64,000 nt of DNA from Geothrix sp. (GTDB taxonomy: Bacteria; Acidobacteriota; Holophagae; Holophagales; Holophagaceae): positions 434,001 to 498,000 of the forward strand of contig NZ_CP126625.1 in the NCBI RefSeq assembly GCF_030219325.1. Direction: 5' to 3'. Positions within the stretch are counted from its first letter, which is position 1. Every line of letters starts with the position of its first letter. The translations under genes were made by a program, and so were the position numbers. The notes beneath the pieces were generated by a model. The model was not told where the DNA came from. It saw only the letters and a list, made by a program, of their open reading frames with translations, and did not search any database. Positions 5,509 through 48,009 of the stretch are shown in pieces.

Positions 5509-7647
5509 CTAGGAGCCCTGGACCGCCAGGACCTGCCGGATCACCCGCGTATCGGTGTAGGGGTCCACGGGGGCGGGGATCAGGTCCGCGGGACGGGCCG
5601 GCGTTCCGGGCGGCAGGCCGGGCAGGATGACGTCCACGGTCAGGTGGGATCCCGGCTGGGGTTCCAGCTCGAAGGTGAGGCTCGCCGGGGGGGCGAACCA
5701 GTGGAGCCGCCGGACGGCCGGGAGGGGTTTGCCATCCTGGGTCATCCCCGACATGGGCGTGTCCGCCGATAACACCAGGGCCAGCGCCCGTTCCGGGAGG
5801 GTGATGGTCAGGCGCTTCCCGTCCTGGAGCAGCGAGGGTCGGGGCAGATGGAAGACTGGGGCCGGGCTGGCGTGGGCGCGCCGCCCCCCGAAGCGGATGT
5901 CCTCGGCCGGCTCAGTCATCAGGGACCGGGTCCAGGCATCGGGCATGTGGAAGCTCACCCACTGCGCTTTCCCCGTGGCCGCGTCTTCGAGGTAGGCCAG
6001 GGTGCTGAGGCGAGGGCCGGTCCTGGTGGCTCCGACTGCGAAGCAGAGCACCGCGGCACTCAGGCCGGCGGCGGGCAGCACCCAGAGACGCGTCTGGAAC
6101 GGGCGCCGCAGGAGCGGCAGCAGTGGCATCAGCCCGAAGGCGACCAGAAGCCCCAGGAAGAACGGCAGGCCGAAGCCCAGCAGGAGGGCGAGGTTGTGCC
6201 AGACGGGGGGGAAGAGCAGCAGCAGTGGAAGGGCGGCGACCCAGGGCTTCTCCCACCAAAGCCCCAGCAGGGCGAAGAGCAGGGGCCAGAGCAGGAAGTA
6301 GGTGGCGCCGGGCAGGATGGCGGTGGCGGCCACGAGGGCCAGCAGCCACCAGAGCAGGGCCCCCAGGGTGAGGCCCCGGACTTCGAAGCGGCGGAGCGCC
6401 CAGCCCCACACCAAGGCCAGGGTGGTCAGCGCGGTGGCGAGCAGGGCCGCCTCGAACCAACGCACGCCGTAAGGATCCTGGTTGGGGATCCCCTGGCGGA
6501 AGGGCTTCACCAGGACTTCCAGGCCGCTCGCCGTGAGGGCGCCAACGATCAGGCTGCCGAGCGCCAAGCCCGTGCCGGCCAAGAAGCTTTTCAAGACCCC
6601 CGGCCCGCGCCGGAGGCGCCAGAGCAGGGCGGCGAAGGCGGCCAGGGCCAGCGCGGTCAGGGGCCAGGCCAGGGTGGCGGGATAGAGCAGCAGGATCCGG
6701 CCCAGCAGGTCGAAGTAGATGGCTTCGCCCCGTCCGGGTCGGGCGATGGCTCCGAGATCGGCGGCGAGGAAGTGGCGACCGAGGGCAAGGGCCGTGTCCC
6801 CGTGCTGCTGGAGACTGCCCTGATCCAGGCCATCCGGCGTGTCGAGCGCGGTGTGGTAGTGCTGCCAGCGGCCCACGAAGGCGAAGTTGAGCCCGGCCAT
6901 GCCCGCCTGCTTGAGCACGGTCAGGTCCGTGTCGTTGGGCAGCAGCTTGTAGAGAGCGTACATCAGGGAGGAGGCATGAGGCCTGGGGGCGGCCACGGCG
7001 AACTCGCGCATCAGGGGCAGGTTGCCCTCGCTGGTCTCGAACATGAAGACCGGCCCGCCACCGCCCCGCGCCTCAAAGTTGAGGGCCAGGGCGGGGGATT
7101 TCCCTTCGAGCGCATCGACATGGGCCTGGGCACCCAGGAGGCCCACCTCTTCGGCATCGGTGATGAGGATGCGGAGCGTGTTCCGGCTGGGCGCCAGGGC
7201 CCGGGCCGTTTCGAGCAGCGCAGCCACGCCGGCGGCATCGTCGCCCGCGCCGGGGCCGGTGCCATGCGAGTCGTAGTGCGCCATGAGCAGCAGGGTGCCG
7301 GTGGGGGCGCTGCCGGGCCTCTCGGCGACGATGTTCTCCACGGTCGCCAGAATCAAGTCACGGTCGCCGTGGACGCGCCAGGCCACCCGCTTCTGGACAG
7401 TGGTGGTGAATCCGAGCTGCCGGAAGGACGCGACCAGCTGGTCGCGGACGCGGTCATGTTCGGGCGTGCCCGGCGGGTGCGGCGCCCGTGCGAGCTCGCG
7501 CACGTGGACCATGGCCCGCTCCGCGGAGAAGCGATCGGCGGGGGCGCTGGCCGGGACCGGGTCCGGCGGTGCCTGCAGGACCATCACGCCGGCGGTGATG
7601 AGGCCCAGCAGCAGCAGGGTGGCGAGGGGGCGCTGCAGCAGGTTCAT
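5509..7647 (-). CDS. M28-family zinc peptidase with C-terminal membrane domain
   Basis: A 712-residue protein with one N-terminal membrane anchor, an extracytoplasmic M28 aminopeptidase-type domain (about 40-310) and then about eight hydrophobic segments (about 320-560) followed by a soluble beta-rich tail. Metal-ligand motifs are visible: AHYDSHG (H124, D126), GAGDDAAGV (D136) and DAEEVGLLG. The overall plan resembles the ER/vacuolar membrane M28 peptidases (ERMP1/Pff1 type) found sporadically in bacteria. It probably cleaves peptides outside the cytoplasm; the substrate is unknown. Its start is 18 bases from the GDPD stop, so the two are likely cotranscribed. Confidence 0.85.
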   Translation of the reverse strand: MNLLQRPLATLLLLGLITAGVMVLQAPPDPVPASAPADRFSAERAMVHVRELARAPHPPGTPEHDRVRDQLVASFRQLGFTTTVQKRVAWRVHGDRDLILATVENIVAERPGSAPTGTLLLMAHYDSHGTGPGAGDDAAGVAALLETARALAPSRNTLRILITDAEEVGLLGAQAHVDALEGKSPALALNFEARGGGGPVFMFETSEGNLPLMREFAVAAPRPHASSLMYALYKLLPNDTDLTVLKQAGMAGLNFAFVGRWQHYHTALDTPDGLDQGSLQQHGDTALALGRHFLAADLGAIARPGRGEAIYFDLLGRILLLYPATLAWPLTALALAAFAALLWRLRRGPGVLKSFLAGTGLALGSLIVGALTASGLEVLVKPFRQGIPNQDPYGVRWFEAALLATALTTLALVWGWALRRFEVRGLTLGALLWWLLALVAATAILPGATYFLLWPLLFALLGLWWEKPWVAALPLLLLFPPVWHNLALLLGFGLPFFLGLLVAFGLMPLLPLLRRPFQTRLWVLPAAGLSAAVLCFAVGATRTGPRLSTLAYLEDAATGKAQWVSFHMPDAWTRSLMTEPAEDIRFGGRRAHASPAPVFHLPRPSLLQDGKRLTITLPERALALVLSADTPMSGMTQDGKPLPAVRRLHWFAPPASLTFELEPQPGSHLTVDVILPGLPPGTPARPADLIPAPVDPYTDTRVIRQVLAVQGS

Positions 7648-7665
7648 CGCGGGGGCCGGCTGTCG

Positions 7666-8325
7666 TCAGATCCCGTCCGCGATGAGCACCGCCGGGATGA
7701 AAGGCAGGTCCCTGGCTTCGGCCGGCGTCTTCATGCCCCACAGGGCCAGGCGGTCGGCATGGGGCGCCCAGAGTTCGGGCCGGGCCTTCACGGCCTTGAG
7801 GGGCGGGTGCAGCCAGAGGGCTTCGGGCAGGTCGGCCAGTTCCTCCGCGGTGAGGTCCAGGGCCTCGTCGGTCTCCCAGAGGAAGCCGCAGCGGGCAGTC
7901 TCACAGGCGGCCCACAGCTGCAGGACTTCGCTGTGCTCGAAGCTGCTGAACAGCACGCGGTCCAGGGCCTCGGCGGCCTCCACCGTGGCCAGGGCCTGCT
8001 GCCAGCCGGGCTCGCCCTTCAGTTCGACGTTGATGAGCCTGGCGGGCAACTCCAGGGCGTCCGCCAAGTGGGGCACGGCCTCGCCGTTCTTCAGGGGCGG
8101 CAGCTCGGCTGCCTTCATCTGCCGCAGGTGCCCGGAGCCTTTCGCCGTGCGGGCCAGGTCCTCGTCGTGGAGTACGAGGCAGACGCCGTCCCGGGTGGGC
8201 TGGACGTCCAGTTCGAAGCCGTCCATGCCCGCGGCCAGGGCCGCGCGGAAGGCCTCCAGGCTGTTCTCCAGGTGCTTCGAGGACAGTCCCCGGTGGCCAA
8301 GGATGAGGGAACGGGTGGAGGGCAT
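7666..8325 (-). CDS. Glycerophosphodiester phosphodiesterase family protein
   Basis: A 219-residue GDPD-domain protein. Family catalytic residues are visible: H11 (GHRG), E20-N21 (HLEN), E38 and D40 (FELD) and H53 (LHDED). It would hydrolyse glycerophosphodiesters to glycerol-3-phosphate and an alcohol. No signal peptide is seen, so it is probably cytoplasmic. The start has GGGAG five bases upstream. It is the first gene of a two-gene unit with the M28 peptidase and is divergent from the HDOD regulator. Confidence 0.85.
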   Translation of the reverse strand: MPSTRSLILGHRGLSSKHLENSLEAFRAALAAGMDGFELDVQPTRDGVCLVLHDEDLARTAKGSGHLRQMKAAELPPLKNGEAVPHLADALELPARLINVELKGEPGWQQALATVEAAEALDRVLFSSFEHSEVLQLWAACETARCGFLWETDEALDLTAEELADLPEALWLHPPLKAVKARPELWAPHADRLALWGMKTPAEARDLPFIPAVLIADGI

Positions 8326-8462
8326 GGCGACTCCCGGATCAGAGGTTGATTCTGCCTGGAAAGCCCGTCGCGCGGGGCCCCCCCCGCACGGGATTCCACC
8401 TTTGGCCGGATGATGCCGATGATATGAGTCTGCACTTGGGCGCTCGCGGAGAGGAATCTAGA

Positions 8463-9587
8463 ATGCGGATCCTGCTGGTGGACGGCAATGCGGACCTGCT
8501 CCAGGAGATCCGGCGCGCCTTCTGGAAGCGCCATCGTTCCTGGGAGGTCCTCCTGGCCCAGACGGGAGCCGAGGCCGTCCAGGCGCTGGCCCGCGACCCC
8601 GTGGACATCGTGATCTCGGACATGGCGCTGCCGGACATGGAGGGCGCCGACCTGATCCACCAGGTGCGGGACCTCCAGCCCGGGGCAGTGCGCATCGCGC
8701 TGGCCGACCACCCCCTCGCCGAGTGGCTGGAGCGGGTGGAAGGGGACCTGCACCGCCTCTTCATCAAGCCGCTGGATCCGGAGTTCCTCATCGGGGCCGT
8801 CGAAAGCCTGGACATCGAGGACGATGAGGCGAGCGTCCGGGCGGTACGCGCCTTCGTGGGCGGCCTGGGCCGGATCCCGAGCCTGCCGAGCCTCTACTCG
8901 GAGCTGGTGGCGCTTCTCCAGCGCGAGGATGCCGGCATGAACGACGTGGCCCGCCTCATCCGCAGGGATCTCGGCGTGGCGAGCCAGGTCCTGAAGCTGG
9001 CCAACTCGGTCCACTGCGCCTCGGACCGCCCCGTGGCGGAGCTGGGCCGGGCCGTGGCCATGCTGGGCGTGGATTCGCTGCGCTCCCTGGTGCTGTTCCG
9101 GGGGCTCATCTCCGGCGTGGATTCCCCGCGCCCCCAGGGCCTCGACCTCGAGAAGCTCTGGTTCCATTCCTTCGAGGTGGCCACGGGAGTCCGCAAGCTG
9201 GTGGTCCTGGAGGGTGAGACGCAGCTGGCCGACCTCGCCTTCTCCGTGGGACTGCTGCATGACATCGGCCTGGTGGTCCTGGCCACCGATCCGTCGGGCC
9301 GCTACCGGGCCATCCTGGAACAGGCGCAGACGAGCCGGACCCCATTGGCGGTGCTCGAGCACGACACCTACGGCGTGGATCACGCCCAGGTCGGTGCCCA
9401 CCTGCTCAACCTCTGGGGCCTGCCGCCCGCCTTCTGCCGCCCCGTCCGGGAACACCATGCACCGCCCCCGGGGGGAGAGGGCTTCCCCCTGTCCGCCGCG
9501 CTGCACCTGGCGGACGCCCGCCACGGCGGGGCAAGACCGCGGGCATCTTCGCCGATGGAAGGTGGGGTCTGCATCCGCATGTGCTGA
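8463..9587 (+). CDS. HDOD-domain response regulator, apparent 3' frameshift
   Basis: The N-terminal receiver-like domain (about 1-115, MRILLVDGNADLL with the phospho-acceptor region IVISDMALPDMEG) is followed by an HDOD domain (about 130-330, with LHDIGLVVL). Such proteins act in signalling, often with cyclic nucleotide pathways. GGAGAGG precedes the ATG at 8463; an ATG at 8424 is possible. The annotated frame ends with an unlikely tail after residue LHLADARHGG. Adding one G to the GGGG run at 9528-9531 would extend the protein in a GC3-rich frame to a TAG at 9650-9652, just at the next gene. I infer a sequencing error or a real frameshift. Confidence 0.85.
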   Translation: MRILLVDGNADLLQEIRRAFWKRHRSWEVLLAQTGAEAVQALARDPVDIVISDMALPDMEGADLIHQVRDLQPGAVRIALADHPLAEWLERVEGDLHRLFIKPLDPEFLIGAVESLDIEDDEASVRAVRAFVGGLGRIPSLPSLYSELVALLQREDAGMNDVARLIRRDLGVASQVLKLANSVHCASDRPVAELGRAVAMLGVDSLRSLVLFRGLISGVDSPRPQGLDLEKLWFHSFEVATGVRKLVVLEGETQLADLAFSVGLLHDIGLVVLATDPSGRYRAILEQAQTSRTPLAVLEHDTYGVDHAQVGAHLLNLWGLPPAFCRPVREHHAPPPGGEGFPLSAALHLADARHGGARPRASSPMEGGVCIRMC

Positions 9588-37776: not shown

Positions 37777-38769
37777 TCAGGGCTTCCATCCGTTCAGGAT
37801 GCGCATGTAGTTGGCGCGGGTGAAGGCCTGGGGGTTCGGGGACTTGACCAGGCTCATGCTGCCCCGGGCCTGGGCCAGGGACTCGTATTCGTGCTCCTCG
37901 AGCCACTCGGCGAGGGTGGCCCGGCTCTGGGCCAGGCGGTCGGGGCCGTGGATCAGCAGGGCCGAGACCATCTGGACCGCGTCCGCGCCGGCCATGACGG
38001 CCTTGAGGGCGCCGATGCCGTCATGCACACCTCCGGTGACGGCGAGGCTGCCCTTGATGTGCCCGTGAAGCACGGCAAGCCAGCGCAGGCGGAGCAGCAG
38101 GTCCGAGGGGCCGGACAGCTGCAGGCTGGGCTCGGCGACGAGCTCCTCGACGTTGATGTCGGGCTGGAAGAAGCGGTTGAAGAGCACCAGGCCGTCGGCG
38201 CCCGCGCCTTCCAACTCCACGGCAAAGTGCGCCAGGGCGGAGAAGAAGGGCGAGAGCTTCACGGAGACGGGGATCTTCACTTCGGCCTTCACCGCCCGGA
38301 CGATGTCGAGGGTGCGCTTCTCCACCTCGGAGGCGGATTCCTTCGCGTCCGTGGGGATGTAGTAGACGTTGAGCTCCAGCGCATCGGCGCCGGCATCCTG
38401 CATCAGCTTGCCGTAGTGCAGCCAGCCCGCAGGGGTGGTGCCGTTCAGCGAGGCGATGACGGGAACAGACACGGCGTCCTTGATGCGCCGGATCTGCTCC
38501 AGGTACTTCTCAGGACCCAGGCGGAAGTCATCAGGCTGGGGGAAGAAGGACAGGGCCTCAGCGCTGGTGCTCGAGCTGAGCTGCATGTCCATGATGGTGC
38601 CCTGCTCTTCGCGGGTGATCTGCTCCTCGAAGAGGGAGTGCATCACGATGGCCGAGGCGCCGGCGTCTTCCAGGCGCTTGACCATGCCCATGTCGTCGAC
38701 CATGGGGGAGGCGCCCGCCATCAGGGGGTGGGCGAGCTTGAGGCCGAGGTAGGTGGTCGAGAGGTTCAT
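37777..38769 (-). CDS. Dihydroorotate dehydrogenase-like flavoprotein
   Basis: A 330-residue TIM-barrel FMN protein of the PyrD-like group. Motifs: NLSTTYLGLKLAHPLMAGASP at the start (split here as the FMN-binding entry), VPVIASLNGTTPAGW, VSVKLSPFF and the FMN phosphate-binding end VTGGVHDGIGALKAVMAGADAVQ. It lies 10 bases after nifJ, a pairing known in other anaerobes where it is annotated as DHOD-like and its substrate is not established. A role in central ferredoxin/pyridine nucleotide flow is as likely as one in pyrimidine synthesis. Confidence 0.8.
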   Translation of the reverse strand: MNLSTTYLGLKLAHPLMAGASPMVDDMGMVKRLEDAGASAIVMHSLFEEQITREEQGTIMDMQLSSSTSAEALSFFPQPDDFRLGPEKYLEQIRRIKDAVSVPVIASLNGTTPAGWLHYGKLMQDAGADALELNVYYIPTDAKESASEVEKRTLDIVRAVKAEVKIPVSVKLSPFFSALAHFAVELEGAGADGLVLFNRFFQPDINVEELVAEPSLQLSGPSDLLLRLRWLAVLHGHIKGSLAVTGGVHDGIGALKAVMAGADAVQMVSALLIHGPDRLAQSRATLAEWLEEHEYESLAQARGSMSLVKSPNPQAFTRANYMRILNGWKP

Positions 38770-38779
38770 GTCATCACCC

Positions 38780-42340
<3,561 letters not shown>

Positions 42341-42457: not shown

Positions 42458-45232
42458 TCAGACCGCCGCCTGGGGCTCCCCCATGAGGCGATTGTGAATG
42501 GCTGCGGCCGCCCGGCGGCCCTGGCCCATGGCCAGAATCACCGTCGCGCCGCCGGTGATGACGTCGCCACCGGCGAAGACGCCGGGAATGGAGGTCTCAC
42601 CGGTTTCGTTGTCAACCACAACAACTCCACCTTTGAGGGTCTTCAGCCCCTTGTCGGTCATGGCCAGGAGGGGGTTCACGTCGAAGCCCAGGGCGACCAC
42701 CAGGGTCTCGCAGGGGATCATGATGCGCTCGTCGGTCATCTTGGGGCTGCGGCGGCCATCGGGTCCGGGCTCGCCCAGTTCCATGACGGCGCACTCGGCG
42801 TGGGTCATCCAGCCCTTGTCGTTGCCATGCAGCTGCACGGGGGTGGTGAGGAACTTGAACTCCACGCCCTCCTCGTGGGCATGCTCCAGCTCCTCCTTGC
42901 GGGCGGTGGATTCCTTGATGGTGCGGCGGTAGACGATGGTGACGTGCTCGGCGCCCATGCGGCGGGCGGCGCGGGCGGCGTCCATGGCGGTGTTGCCGGC
43001 GCCCACGATGATGACGTTCTTCCCGACGGTCACCGGGGTGCCGTACTGGGGGAAGAGGTCGGCGCGCATGAGATTGATGCGGGTGAGGAACTCATTGGCG
43101 GTGTAGACGCCCTTGTACTCCTCGCCCGGGATGCCCATCATCTTGGGCAGGCCGGCGCCGGTGCCCATAAAGAGGGCGTCATTCTCCTTGCGCAGGTCCT
43201 CCAGCGTCATGCTGCGGCCCACCAGGGTGTTCATGATGAATTTCACGCCCAGGCGGCGGAGGTTGTCCACTTCCTGGTCCACGATCTTGTTGGGCAGGCG
43301 GAACTCGGGGATGCCGTAGAGCATCACGCCGCCGGGCTTGTGGAAGGCATCGTAGACCGTGACCTGGTGACCCTTCTTGACCAGCTCGCCGGCCACCGTG
43401 AGACCCGCGGGACCGGCGCCGATGACGGCGACCTTCTTGCCCGTGGACGCCTCGACGGGGGGCAGCTCGGTGGAGCCCAGCATCGAATCGGCGGCGAAGC
43501 GCTCCAGGCGGCCGATGGAGACGGGATCACCCTTGATGCCCACCACGCACTTGATCTCGCACTGCTTCTCCTGGGGGCAGACGCGGCCGCAGACGGAGCC
43601 CAGGGAGGAGCTCTCCTTGATGACCCGGGCCGCGGCCTGGGGGTCGTCGTTGACGATCTGCTGCAGGAAGGCCGGGATGTTGATGCTGACCGGGCAGCCG
43701 TCGATGCAGGCGGGGTGCTTGCACATGATGCAGCGGGCGGCTTCGAGCTTGGCCTGTTCGGGCGACAGCCCGAGGCTCACCTCGTCGAAGTTGCACACGC
43801 GCAGCTCGGGCGGCTGGCAGGCCATCTCCTGGCGGGGGATCTTCATCTTCTGGCTGGGCTTGATGGTGCCCAGGTCCAGGGTCTTCCAGTCGGCCAGGTC
43901 GGTGACGGGGGCGTTCAGGTACTGCGAGTAGTCCACGGGGCCCGTGGCGGCCACCCGCCCGATCTTGCACTCGCTGGGGTCGCACTGCTCTTCCGCCTTG
44001 TACCAGTCCTGGCGGTTGCGCAGCATGGCGAAGTCCACCTTGTGGCCGTCGAAGTCGGGGCCGTCGAAGCAGGCGAACTTGGTCTCGCCGCCCACGCTGA
44101 CGCGGCAGCCACCGCACATGCCGGTGCCGTCCACCATGAGCGCGTTGAGGCTCACCAGCGTGAAGATGCCATGGGGCTTCGTGAGATCGGAGACGGCGCG
44201 CATCATGGGCAGCGGGCCCACGGCCACCACTTCGGCGACGGATTCCCGGGCGATGACGTCCGCGAGGGCGTCGGTGACCAGGCCCTTGCGGCCCAGGCTG
44301 CCGTCATCGGTGGTGACGATCAGTTCGGCCGAGGCCGCCCCCAGCTCATCGGCCAGGAGGACGCGCTCCTTGCTGCGGCCGCCCAGGATGGTGATGACAC
44401 GGCGACCCTTTGCATGGAGCTCTTCGGCGGCGGGGAGGATGGCGGCGGAACCATAGCCGCCCGCCATCAGCACGATGGTGCCCTCCTCGACCAGTTCCGT
44501 CGGGGCGCCCATGGGGCCGGCCACGGCGTAGAGGCGGTCGCCCGCGCTGAGCTTGCCCATGGCCTGGGTGGTGGAGCCCACCTCCTGCATGATGAAGTGG
44601 ATGTAGCCCTTGCGCGCGTCACCGCCGGCCAGGGTGAGGGGGATGCGCTCGCTCTCGGGGAAGGGGGCCACCATGAAGAACTGGCCGGGCTTCCGGCCCC
44701 GGGCCACCTGGGGCGCCTGCACGATGAAGGACCAGGTCTCGGGGGCGACGAGCTTCTTCTCCAGGATCAGGTAGCCGTCCTGGGTCTCGTCGTCGGAGCA
44801 GTAGAGGGACTTGCCCCTGAGCAGGGGCAGCATGAGGAATTCTTCCGCCTCGATGTGGTCCCGGATGAGGTCCACCAGGCGCTGGCCCAGCAGTGTGAGG
44901 GAGCGCGGCGCCCGCACCTGGCCTTCGCTGATCTCGGTGAGCAGCTGGAGGGTGAGGTCCCACATCTGGCGGTGGTCCTCGTGGAGGCGCAGGTGCAGGG
45001 CTTCGGCGCCCAGCTCCTCCAGCAGCGGGAAGAGCTCCCGCTCCTCGGCCTCGTTGTGGGGCCGCAGCACTTCGTAGATCCACTTGGCGCCCTTGTCCAC
45101 CTCCTTCCAGTCCCCGGCCCCCAGGGCCTCGGCCATGCGGGTCAGCCGGGCCTGGGCCTCCTCGTGGGTGGCATGCCAGTTGGGGGCAGGCAGGTTGCCG
45201 GCACTGATCAGCAGAGGAGCGGACTCGGACAT
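42458..45232 (-). CDS. Hemerythrin-NfnB-NfnA-like triple fusion flavoprotein
   Basis: A 924-residue protein with three parts. Residues 1-140 are a hemerythrin-type HHE four-helix domain (LRPHNEAEERELFP, LRLHEDHRQM, IRDHIEAEEF). Residues about 150-430 are an NfnB/SudB-type FAD/NAD(P) module of the DHOD electron-transfer type, with CGGC and a fourth Cys for a 2Fe-2S cluster. Residues about 450-924 are a GltD/NfnA-like NADPH module with CIMCKHPACIDGCP and VIGAGPAGLTVAGEL. The last two make a ferredoxin:NADP transhydrogenase-like enzyme. GGAGG five bases before the ATG. It heads the operon with nifJ. Confidence 0.88.
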   Translation of the reverse strand: MSESAPLLISAGNLPAPNWHATHEEAQARLTRMAEALGAGDWKEVDKGAKWIYEVLRPHNEAEERELFPLLEELGAEALHLRLHEDHRQMWDLTLQLLTEISEGQVRAPRSLTLLGQRLVDLIRDHIEAEEFLMLPLLRGKSLYCSDDETQDGYLILEKKLVAPETWSFIVQAPQVARGRKPGQFFMVAPFPESERIPLTLAGGDARKGYIHFIMQEVGSTTQAMGKLSAGDRLYAVAGPMGAPTELVEEGTIVLMAGGYGSAAILPAAEELHAKGRRVITILGGRSKERVLLADELGAASAELIVTTDDGSLGRKGLVTDALADVIARESVAEVVAVGPLPMMRAVSDLTKPHGIFTLVSLNALMVDGTGMCGGCRVSVGGETKFACFDGPDFDGHKVDFAMLRNRQDWYKAEEQCDPSECKIGRVAATGPVDYSQYLNAPVTDLADWKTLDLGTIKPSQKMKIPRQEMACQPPELRVCNFDEVSLGLSPEQAKLEAARCIMCKHPACIDGCPVSINIPAFLQQIVNDDPQAAARVIKESSSLGSVCGRVCPQEKQCEIKCVVGIKGDPVSIGRLERFAADSMLGSTELPPVEASTGKKVAVIGAGPAGLTVAGELVKKGHQVTVYDAFHKPGGVMLYGIPEFRLPNKIVDQEVDNLRRLGVKFIMNTLVGRSMTLEDLRKENDALFMGTGAGLPKMMGIPGEEYKGVYTANEFLTRINLMRADLFPQYGTPVTVGKNVIIVGAGNTAMDAARAARRMGAEHVTIVYRRTIKESTARKEELEHAHEEGVEFKFLTTPVQLHGNDKGWMTHAECAVMELGEPGPDGRRSPKMTDERIMIPCETLVVALGFDVNPLLAMTDKGLKTLKGGVVVVDNETGETSIPGVFAGGDVITGGATVILAMGQGRRAAAAIHNRLMGEPQAAV

Positions 45233-45375: not shown

Positions 45376-48009
45376 TTATTTATTCTTAGATTTGCCGGTG
45401 GGCCCGCGGAGGATTTCCCGGACCTTGCCCACCAGTTCGCGAACCCTGAACGGTTTCTGCAGAAACCCGTCCGGAGGGAGGTCCGCCAGGGACTCCAGGG
45501 ATTCCTTCTGGGTGTAGCCGCTGGTCAGGAGCACCTTGATGCCGGGCGCCAGGCTCCGGATGCGTCGGAAGGTCTCGGCGCCGCCCATCCGGGGCATGGT
45601 CATGTCGAGCAGGACCAGGTCGATGGACCCACGCTCCTGCTCGAAGCGCTCCACGGCCTCCAGCCCGTCCCGGGCCTCCAGCACGCTGAAGCCGGCGGTC
45701 TCCAGGGCGCTCCGGGCCAGGTCGCGGATGATGCTCTCGTCGTCGACCACCAGGACCGTGCCGGACATCGGCACCGGCGGTTCGGCCTCGGGGATGAGCT
45801 GGGCGACGGTGGATTCGGAGGCCGGGAACAGAAGGATGAAGAGGGTCCCCTCACCCGGGTTGCTTTCCACCCGGATCCCGGCCCGGTGGCCGCGGACGAT
45901 GCCCAGCATGGCCGAGAGGCCCAGGCCCCGGCCGGTGAACTTGGTGGTGAAGAAGGGGTCGAAGATGCGGCCGATGGTCTCGGCATCCATGCCGCAGCCA
46001 TCGTCCTCGACCTCCAGGCGCACGTAGGGGCCGGGGTCCAGCACCTGGCCGGGGAAGGTGGAACTGAGCTCGGCCCGGCCGTAGGACACGCTCCGCGTGC
46101 GGACGACGACCCGGCCGGGCTGGTCCCCGATGGCCTCGGAGGCATTGATCACGAGGTTCATGACCACCTGCTGGAACTGGGCACTGTCGGCGTCCACGGG
46201 TGGCAGGCCCGGTTCCAGGTCGGTCGTGACCGTGACCTTCTTGGAGATGGACACGGAGAGCAGGTCGCCCATCTCGAGGATGATGGCGTTCAGGTCCAGG
46301 GGCCGGACGGCGAAGTGGGCCTTGCCGGCGTAGGCCAGGAGCTGCCGGGCGAGATCCGATCCGCGCTGGGTGGTGGCCTCGATGCGCTGGATGGCGCTAC
46401 GCAGGGCGGGGTCGTCCGGGATGCGGTCCAGCGCCACCTCGGCATTGCCGAGGATGGCCGTCAGCAGGTTGTTGAAGTCATGGGCGATGCCGCCGGCCAG
46501 CACGCCCAGGCTCTCCAGCTTCTGGGCCTGGCGCAGGGCGCTTTCGGCGCGGCGGCGCTCGGTGACGTCATCGGCCAGGTAGATGGCCCCGATGAACCGC
46601 CCCCGCTCGTCCCGGAGGGCGGTGTTGTACCAGTCGCACAGGATCCGCTGGCCGGTGCGGGTGAGGTTCTCCATGGTGACGCGGGTGCCGGTCTCGCTGG
46701 CGAGCAGGGCTTCGCGGCGCGAGGGCACCTCGTCCTGGCCCTCCGGCGGGATGATCAGGGCCCGGGGGTCCTGGCCCAGCGCCGCCTCCCTGGAGAACCC
46801 GAAGATGCGTTCCGCGGCGGGGTTCCACTCGCTCACCTTGAACATCGAGTCCGTCTCGATGACCGCCAGGGGCGTGTACATCAGGTGGCTGCGGTTCCGG
46901 TGCAGCGCCTCGCGGAGGGAGGCGTTCATCGAGTGGGCCAGCTCCAGTGCCCGCCGGCGAGTGCCGGCGAGGGACCAGACGACGGCGGCCAGGCAGACGC
47001 TCACCAGGAGCCCGCCCACCAGGAGGATGAGGGGCTGGTTCCGGCCCTCGACCTTGTAGAAGTCGGGCTTGATCGCGTAGCGGACCTGCCAGCCGCGTCC
47101 CCCGATGTCCAAGGTGCGGATGACGTCGGCCCCGCCGCCCTTGGGCCAGTCGGAAGTCGCGTAGAGCCACCGGGGGCCCTGGGCGGCGAAGGCGTCCACC
47201 ACTTCGAAGGCCACGCCCTGATCCTCACCCCTGAGCACGTCCTCGATGAGGGGCTTGATGAGGATGCCGGCGGAGATCCAGCCGCGGAGCAGCTGGCGGC
47301 GCAGGGCCGGGCTGCCGGGGGTGCCCTCGTAGACGGGCACGAAGAGGGCCACGGCGTCCTCCCGGCCCAGGGGCCGGGTGAAGTAGAGCAGCCCCGACAG
47401 CGCTGGCTGGCCGGTGTCCCGCGCCCGCTCGGCGGCCAGCCGCTGGGTGGCGCTGGTGCCCACGTCCAGGCCGAGGCCCGCGGCGGCACGCTCGCCGGGT
47501 TCGCAGAGCTCGATGATCAGGTGGTCCCCATGCTGGCCGGGGTCGTGCAGTGGCATCGGGTCCGAGATGGGCCGGTGGTAGCGGCCCGCGAGCTGGGGCC
47601 TGTGCGTCAGGAAGGCGTCCAGATCGGCGGAGGGGACCGGGGTGATGAAGGCGAGGCTCGTCAGGCCCGGGTGGCGGCCGGGCAGGTCGAGCCTGTCCAC
47701 GTAGGTCCGCCACTGCTCGACCGCCAGGGGCGAATTCCCGCCCACGAAGAATCCCTGGGCGCCGCGGGCGATGTCCTCGTAGCGACCCAGCCGGTTCCGG
47801 AGGCTCTGCTCGGTGCGTCCCACGAACCGGTTCAAGCGGGCCTGGTCGCGCAGCAGCTGGTTCTGCCGTGAATTCAGCCAGGCCACCATCGTGACGGCCA
47901 GGCTCAGCAGCAGGACCGCCAGCGTCGGCACCCAGGGGCGCTGGGCGTCGGCTTCGGGATCGGATGGGTCGGAGAAAACGGGCATCGAGGGGCTCGGGAA
48001 TCGGTTCAT
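45376..48009 (-). CDS. CHASE-PAS hybrid sensor histidine kinase
   Basis: An 877-residue membrane sensor with a transmembrane segment at about 28-48, a periplasmic CHASE domain (about 70-310), a second segment (about 320-345), a PAS domain (about 365-485), HisKA with [17 protein letters not shown], an HATPase domain ([26 protein letters not shown]) and a receiver with [13 protein letters not shown]. Its domain order and kinase motifs parallel the protein at 11033-13546. It lies upstream of the Nfn fusion on the same strand, but a separate promoter region intervenes. Confidence 0.9.

Follow-up and report, generated by a model that had tools for sequence, protein, structure and literature searches.

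Nfn, the NADH-dependent ferredoxin:NADP+ oxidoreductase, is a model enzyme of flavin-based electron bifurcation. Four patterns of Nfn have been described, none of them with an HHE or di-iron domain, and electron bifurcation is not readable from sequence alone (Liang 2019). The survival of such anaerobic-type low-potential enzymes in O2-respiring bacteria is a wider question, which the locus described here touches. The canonical bacteriohemerythrin site is built from five His, one Glu and one Asp, with HxxxH in helix 3 and HxxxxD in helix 4, and the canonical O2-carrier pattern requires the second His of helix 3. RIC/YtfE proteins have been linked to Fe–S repair and to the chemistry of NO and nitrite, and most bacterial RICs carry a ScdA_N domain with a CC motif. 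YtfE relies on an external reductant, for which a ferredoxin together with a reductase has been proposed (PMC9052748). For YtfE, potentials of +110 and +260 mV and slow reductase rates are reported (PMC9052748, PMC9268430). Moreover, a fusion of flavodiiron protein, rubredoxin and reductase from T. vaginalis is a self-sufficient oxidase (PMC9364112).

The window analysed here, a stretch of 64,000 nucleotides from Geothrix sp. (contig NZ_CP126625.1), contains the minus-strand ORF 42458-45232(-), which encodes a chain of 924 aa and has an ATG start with a GGAGG ribosome site ahead of it. The chain is composed of an HHE domain (aa 18-138), NfnA (154-421) and NfnB (467-918), arranged in the DNA as follows.

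44797-45232, minus strand: HHE (hemerythrin-like) predicted di-iron domain, aa 1-145; PF01814 match, ligands conserved in 47 of 47 sequences, AF2 bundle, structural matches 3cax and 2p0n.
44771-44818, minus strand: HHE–NfnA linker, aa 139-154; same length in 47 of 47 sequences.
43970-44773, minus strand: NfnA-like part (DHODB/FNR-like) with a-FAD, NAD site and [2Fe–2S]; PRK06222; P. furiosus NfnI small subunit at E 6.8e-77.
42461-43834, minus strand: NfnB-like part (GltD-like) with two [4Fe–4S] clusters, b-FAD and NADP site; TIGR01316; T. maritima NfnB at E 3e-147.

The stretch 44770-45232, singled out by the first-pass annotation, is the HHE part of this ORF. PF01814 matches aa 18-138 with 45.4 bits (Pfam gathering cut-off 25.3), PRK06222, an NfnA-like model, matches aa 154-421, and the NfnB-like model TIGR01316 matches aa 474-914 with 559.7 bits against a cut-off of 471.75. 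The score for PRK12778, the single-chain Nfn model, is 947.9, under its cut-off of 1103. The closest solved structures to the Nfn part are the Nfn subunits of T. maritima and P. furiosus. These matches to PF01814, PRK06222 and TIGR01316 bear out the first-pass annotation, which had seen a hemerythrin-type domain and both Nfn halves in one chain. Its order of the halves, NfnB before NfnA, has to be reversed: by the naming of Liang 2019, NfnA (FAD/[2Fe–2S]) comes first and is followed by the GltD-like NfnB.

The source genome is one 3.73 Mb contig, and 47 distinct full-length fusion sequences were found. Isolates with the fusion include G. fermentans DSM 14018, G. limicola, G. rubra, G. oryzisoli and G. 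campi, as well as G. fuzhouensis, G. paludis and G. terrae. The number of distinct sequences, the named isolates and the single-contig source genome together dispel the concern that the fusion might be an assembly artefact. The whole fusion, defined as a match with query start <= 18 and end >= 900, is present in at least 46 of the 77 genomes sampled from the Geothrix family, whose members live in soil and sediment, and in many of the remaining genomes the match is cut by contig ends. A sample of 396 genomes from across the phylum yielded the HHE part in this family alone, and the plasmid collection gave no match to the fusion; beyond the phylum, the scope is a single pattern scan of genome contigs. 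Thus, as to how widespread the architecture is, a point raised in the first-pass annotation, it is, within the sampling, confined to a single family. Transfer to Deltaproteobacteria was also considered, on account of a fusion-bearing MAG contig with that title (L076, JAIFMW010000192.1), and was rejected; the MAG is apparently the same as a genome of the Geothrix family (G060). Their matches, at a contig end, are equally long, on which basis the title is probably a mislabel.

The HHE domain has the four His and two Glu of RIC/YtfE. The predicted di-iron ligands H23, H59, E63, H87, H126 and E130 are invariant in all 47 distinct sequences and follow the pattern H / HxxxE / H / HxxxE (H59xxxE63, H126xxxE130), while only ~22% of HHE positions are invariant and most others vary. 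In YtfE, the ligands are H84 with H204 and H129 with H160, bridged by E133 and E208 (PMC9268430). Read in sequence order (H84, H129, E133, H160, H204, E208), they agree in kind and order with those of the fused domain. The positions at −4 and +4 of H87 are L/I and W, the second helix-3 His being absent, and H84 of the fusion is His in just 13 of the 47 sequences. In addition, Glu stands at +4 of H126 in 47/47. The bacteriohemerythrin model TIGR02481 gives 15.4 bits against a cut-off of 51.75, and the RIC model TIGR03652 (cut-off 204.7 bits) does not report the domain at E 0.1. No ScdA_N domain precedes the HHE domain, which begins at about aa 18. The ligand set, read from the sequence, is of RIC/YtfE type, from which we infer di-iron binding. 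The first-pass annotation had proposed an oxygen- or NO-binding hemerythrin. The di-iron ligand set stands, as one of RIC/YtfE type, and the O2-carrier type does not; because O2-carrying hemerythrins have a 5-His/Asp set and this one is 4-His/2-Glu, the oxygen-binding reading needs correcting.

The predicted fold is in line with this family assignment. An AF2 model of the HHE domain alone is a four-helix bundle with a mean pLDDT of 85.8; the full-length model of the fusion has a pLDDT of 49.9 and is unusable for domain placement. For the HHE model, Foldseek found nothing at E <= 0.001, and the HHE profile had no significant match among PDB sequences. When the Foldseek list was aligned with VIA-align, PF0695 (3cax) ranked first (Z 14.2, rmsd 2.7 A, 133 aligned residues) and NMB1532 (2p0n) second (Z 13.1, rmsd 3.2 A, 132 aligned residues). 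Both, which we take to be HHE-family proteins, rank above designed and unrelated helical bundles, and DcrH-Hr has Z 11.3; these structural matches are supportive only, since helical bundles can reach Z values close to these by chance.

The Nfn part harbors the predicted cofactor ligands of both halves, as judged by published motifs for the Nfn [2Fe–2S] and FAD sites (PMC6405883). The [2Fe–2S] ligands D368, C373, C376 and C388 of NfnA (DGTGMCGxCRx10C) and its FAD motif ERxPxT (E195, R196, P198, T200) are present in 47/47 sequences. Equally constant are the [4Fe–4S] ligands of NfnB (C501, C504, C509, C513; C548, C552, E555, C558, C562) and the b-FAD N5 arginine R645, which corresponds to R187 of T. 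maritima, again in 47/47. By these motifs, the fusion is predicted to contain both an NfnA and an NfnB. The HHE–NfnA linker, L138-Y154, has 17 residues in every one of the 47 sequences; the NfnA–NfnB spacer varies in length from 45 to 47 residues.

Median pairwise dN/dS, calculated for the window protein and 16 relatives, is ~0.17 for the HHE domain, 0.12 for NfnA and 0.11 for NfnB. The HHE domain is therefore under purifying selection, somewhat looser than that on the enzyme part. A decaying or neutrally evolving HHE domain was considered and rejected, as both this ratio and the invariant ligands are against it.

In the NfnAB tree, one clade (100/100) unites all family members of this type, 14 of them fused to HHE and three, from genus g11, without it. 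Outside this clade lie a PRK12775-like chain (L132) and the split nfnA/nfnB of genomes G069 and G072. One contig of G069 (L098) carries a stand-alone HHE gene of 167 aa (8329-8832), 52 bp after a split nfnB (nfnA/nfnB 6013-8277) that is not orthologous to the Nfn of the fusion. This HHE protein keeps all six di-iron ligands and nests in the clade of fused HHE domains (whole clade 100/99; within genus g9 100/95). Its C-terminal residues GAGYLMLPAP are similar to the linker and the beginning of NfnA in the fusion (DGYLILEKKLVAP). Given its nesting and its linker-like C-terminus, it looks like a fission product retained beside the Nfn of another lineage, in one MAG with 8% contamination and with the gene close to a contig end. 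A second HHE–NfnAB copy is present in genome G070 (L087), with a faster-evolving HHE domain and intact ligands. The nearest branch to the Nfn-associated HHE domains is formed by those of L144 and L145. In these two (L144:3396-4232(+) and L145:3855-4700(-)), the HHE domain follows an N-terminal region that is cupin-like by eye, and Pfam reported Hemerythrin alone.

The source genome is hemerythrin-rich, with 22 PF01814 loci in 3.7 Mb, RIC-like proteins and canonical bacteriohemerythrins among them; a RIC-like protein separate from the fusion is encoded at L154. It encodes oxidases of the aa3, cbb3 and bd types, the aa3 and cbb3 ones scoring below the cut-offs of TIGR02891 and ccoN. It also has a NorB-like NO reductase that includes the NorB cytochrome c-like domain, and a match to cytochrome c552 nitrite reductase. 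PF00115 heme-copper oxidases and/or NO reductases are present in 11 of 11 fusion-bearing genomes tested, whereas they were found in none of the three plain-NfnAB genomes of g11, one of which is 69% complete. The bd oxidase is retained in two of these three. Hemerythrin genes number 0-1 in the two g11 genomes tested, compared with 4-22 in the fusion genomes. The oxidase/NO-reductase contrast links the HHE domain to O2 or NO exposure through one phylogenetic contrast, that with g11.

Three minus-strand genes accompany the fusion in the window.

38780-42340, minus strand: PFOR, downstream of the fusion after a 117 bp gap; TIGR02176, 1787.8 bits.
37777-38769, minus strand: dihydroorotate-dehydrogenase-like (DHOD-like) protein, 10 bp after PFOR; PRK07565, 427 bits.
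45376-48009, minus strand: CHASE-PAS-HisKA-receiver hybrid histidine kinase, upstream of the fusion; Pfam.

Wherever a Geothrix locus extends far enough downstream, PFOR comes after the fusion on its strand, mostly at 107-153 bp. In one genome of another genus (G052), PFOR and the DHOD-like gene are located upstream of the fusion instead, and in the other genera neither gene was seen within ~5 kb of it. PFOR and Nfn have ferredoxin as a common partner. In C. jejuni, hemerythrins (HerA) protect Por/Oor, pyruvate oxidoreductase, from O2 (PMC4257069). Protection of the PFOR next door, as the first-pass annotation had suggested, is consistent with the adjacency in Geothrix and made plausible by the C. 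jejuni precedent, but the adjacency is absent from most other genera. With PFOR adjacency limited to Geothrix and one further genus, protection of a neighboring PFOR cannot account for the fusion in general. The hybrid kinase adjoins the fusion in many, though not all, Geothrix, and a link between it and control of the fusion locus is possible.

We tentatively favor a role of the HHE domain as a catalytic sink or scavenger of O2, NO or peroxide that is fed by Nfn, and give it somewhat less than an even chance. The domain would bind two irons and would reduce or scavenge O2, NO or peroxide (or nitrite) reaching the enzyme, with electrons coming from the Nfn flavins and Fe–S clusters, and so from NADH, NADPH or reduced ferredoxin. 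The fusion would then be a self-sufficient reductase, which during exposure to air or NO might shield the labile low-potential clusters in Nfn itself and in partner enzymes like PFOR. The invariant di-iron and Nfn ligands, the purifying selection and the constant linker all point to this role. It also agrees with the oxidase/NO-reductase contrast and with the precedents of YtfE, of the T. vaginalis flavodiiron fusion (FDPF) and of HerA. The high potentials and slow rates of YtfE count against an HHE reductase fed by Nfn. A tethered di-iron center might also be wired to the a-FAD or the [2Fe–2S] cluster of NfnA, so giving HHE–NfnAB, as a bifurcating transhydrogenase, a third outlet for electrons. 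Such an enzyme would be a soluble ferredoxin/NAD(P)H-dependent O2/NO/nitrite reductase diverting low-potential electrons to detoxification on exposure, which we regard as unlikely. In either form, the fusion could serve as a natural experiment on the direct feeding of a hemerythrin-like site by a ferredoxin/NAD(P)H reductase, as proposed for YtfE.

The same ligand set, which matches that of YtfE in kind and order (PMC9268430), would also suit a domain that draws no electrons from Nfn at all. Such a domain would trap O2 or NO passively, or would act like RIC/YtfE as an iron reserve or repair factor for the Fe–S clusters of Nfn (and PFOR). Geothrix does encode two enzymes with many labile Fe–S clusters next to each other. 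However, the fusion lacks ScdA_N and leaves the RIC model (cut-off 204.7) unmatched, the same genome has L154 as a separate RIC-like protein, and an iron donor has no need of a constant linker, so that this role appears unlikely. A short linker of constant length would rather suit allostery, with binding of O2, NO or iron shifting the conformation of the HHE domain and gating Nfn, as in chemoreceptors and FBXL5. Hemerythrin-domain sensor fusions are common, and 56 architectures have been recorded, many with signalling domains (PMC4919030). The chain has no signalling partner, though, and its ligands differ from those of the O2-sensing 5-His hemerythrins; we likewise consider a sensor unlikely, and slightly less probable than repair or trapping. 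Most Nfn, and those of the sister group g11, function without HHE, which would fit a mainly structural domain, acting in assembly or oligomerisation with a metal of no consequence. This is highly improbable in view of the six ligands, which are invariant amid mostly variable HHE positions and are all retained even by the stand-alone descendant in L098.

Compared with known systems, the Nfn chain itself is of a familiar kind. An NfnA-then-NfnB chain is common to NfnAB/NfnI (T. maritima 4YLF/4YRY; P. furiosus 5JCA) and to pattern B Nfn (PRK12778; C. autoethanogenum), and the motifs ERxPxT, DGTGMCGxCRx10C, RCx2Cx4Cx3CPV and GRVCPQExQCx3C and the b-FAD Arg are shared. Unlike NfnI and PRK12778, the fusion has an N-terminal HHE domain of ~140 aa. 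With RIC/YtfE/ScdA (TIGR03652, PRK10992) it shares the four-helix HHE fold and the 4 His + 2 Glu set with HxxxE in helices 2 and 4, but it is without ScdA_N and without a significant RIC match, is fused to a reductase and occupies a separate branch of the HHE tree. Bacteriohemerythrins and C. jejuni HerA (TIGR02481) belong to the same superfamily, whereas their set is the 5-His one. The flavodiiron–rubredoxin–NROR proteins (T. vaginalis FDPF, C. difficile FDP) share the concept of a self-sufficient di-iron reductase equipped with an NAD(P)H dehydrogenase of its own, built from domains unrelated to those of HHE–NfnAB. A search of the literature on hemerythrin with NfnAB, glutamate synthase or Geothrix, largely confined to papers outside subscription, found no description of the fusion. 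This agrees with the novelty claimed in the first-pass annotation and with the absence of HHE from the Liang 2019 patterns, and HHE–NfnAB is apparently a conserved, undescribed architecture of the Geothrix family.

NfnAB with a candidate di-iron domain at the opposite end is already catalogued as model PRK12775 (NF009413). Two loci of the same phylum (L132:1492-4497(-) and L133:1-2757(+)) encode PRK12775-like NfnAB with C-terminal Cys pairs and ferritin/rubrerythrin-like ExxH motifs. The ferritin assignment of L132 rests on NF009413 coverage 1-1003 (below cut-off) and on ExxH motifs read by eye, Pfam reporting no ferritin domain in it at E 1e-4. The fusion has no C-terminal ferritin domain; its PRK12775 match stops at position 753 of the 1006 in the profile, and the protein at aa 924. 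PRK12775 thus likewise joins an Nfn chain to a candidate di-iron domain, but with another fold, a C-terminal ferritin end and a different Nfn lineage, as an independent construction. The presence of HHE–NfnAB and NfnAB–ferritin in one phylum suggests repeated selection for a di-iron center on Nfn, and such a tethered domain may protect oxygen-sensitive metabolism.
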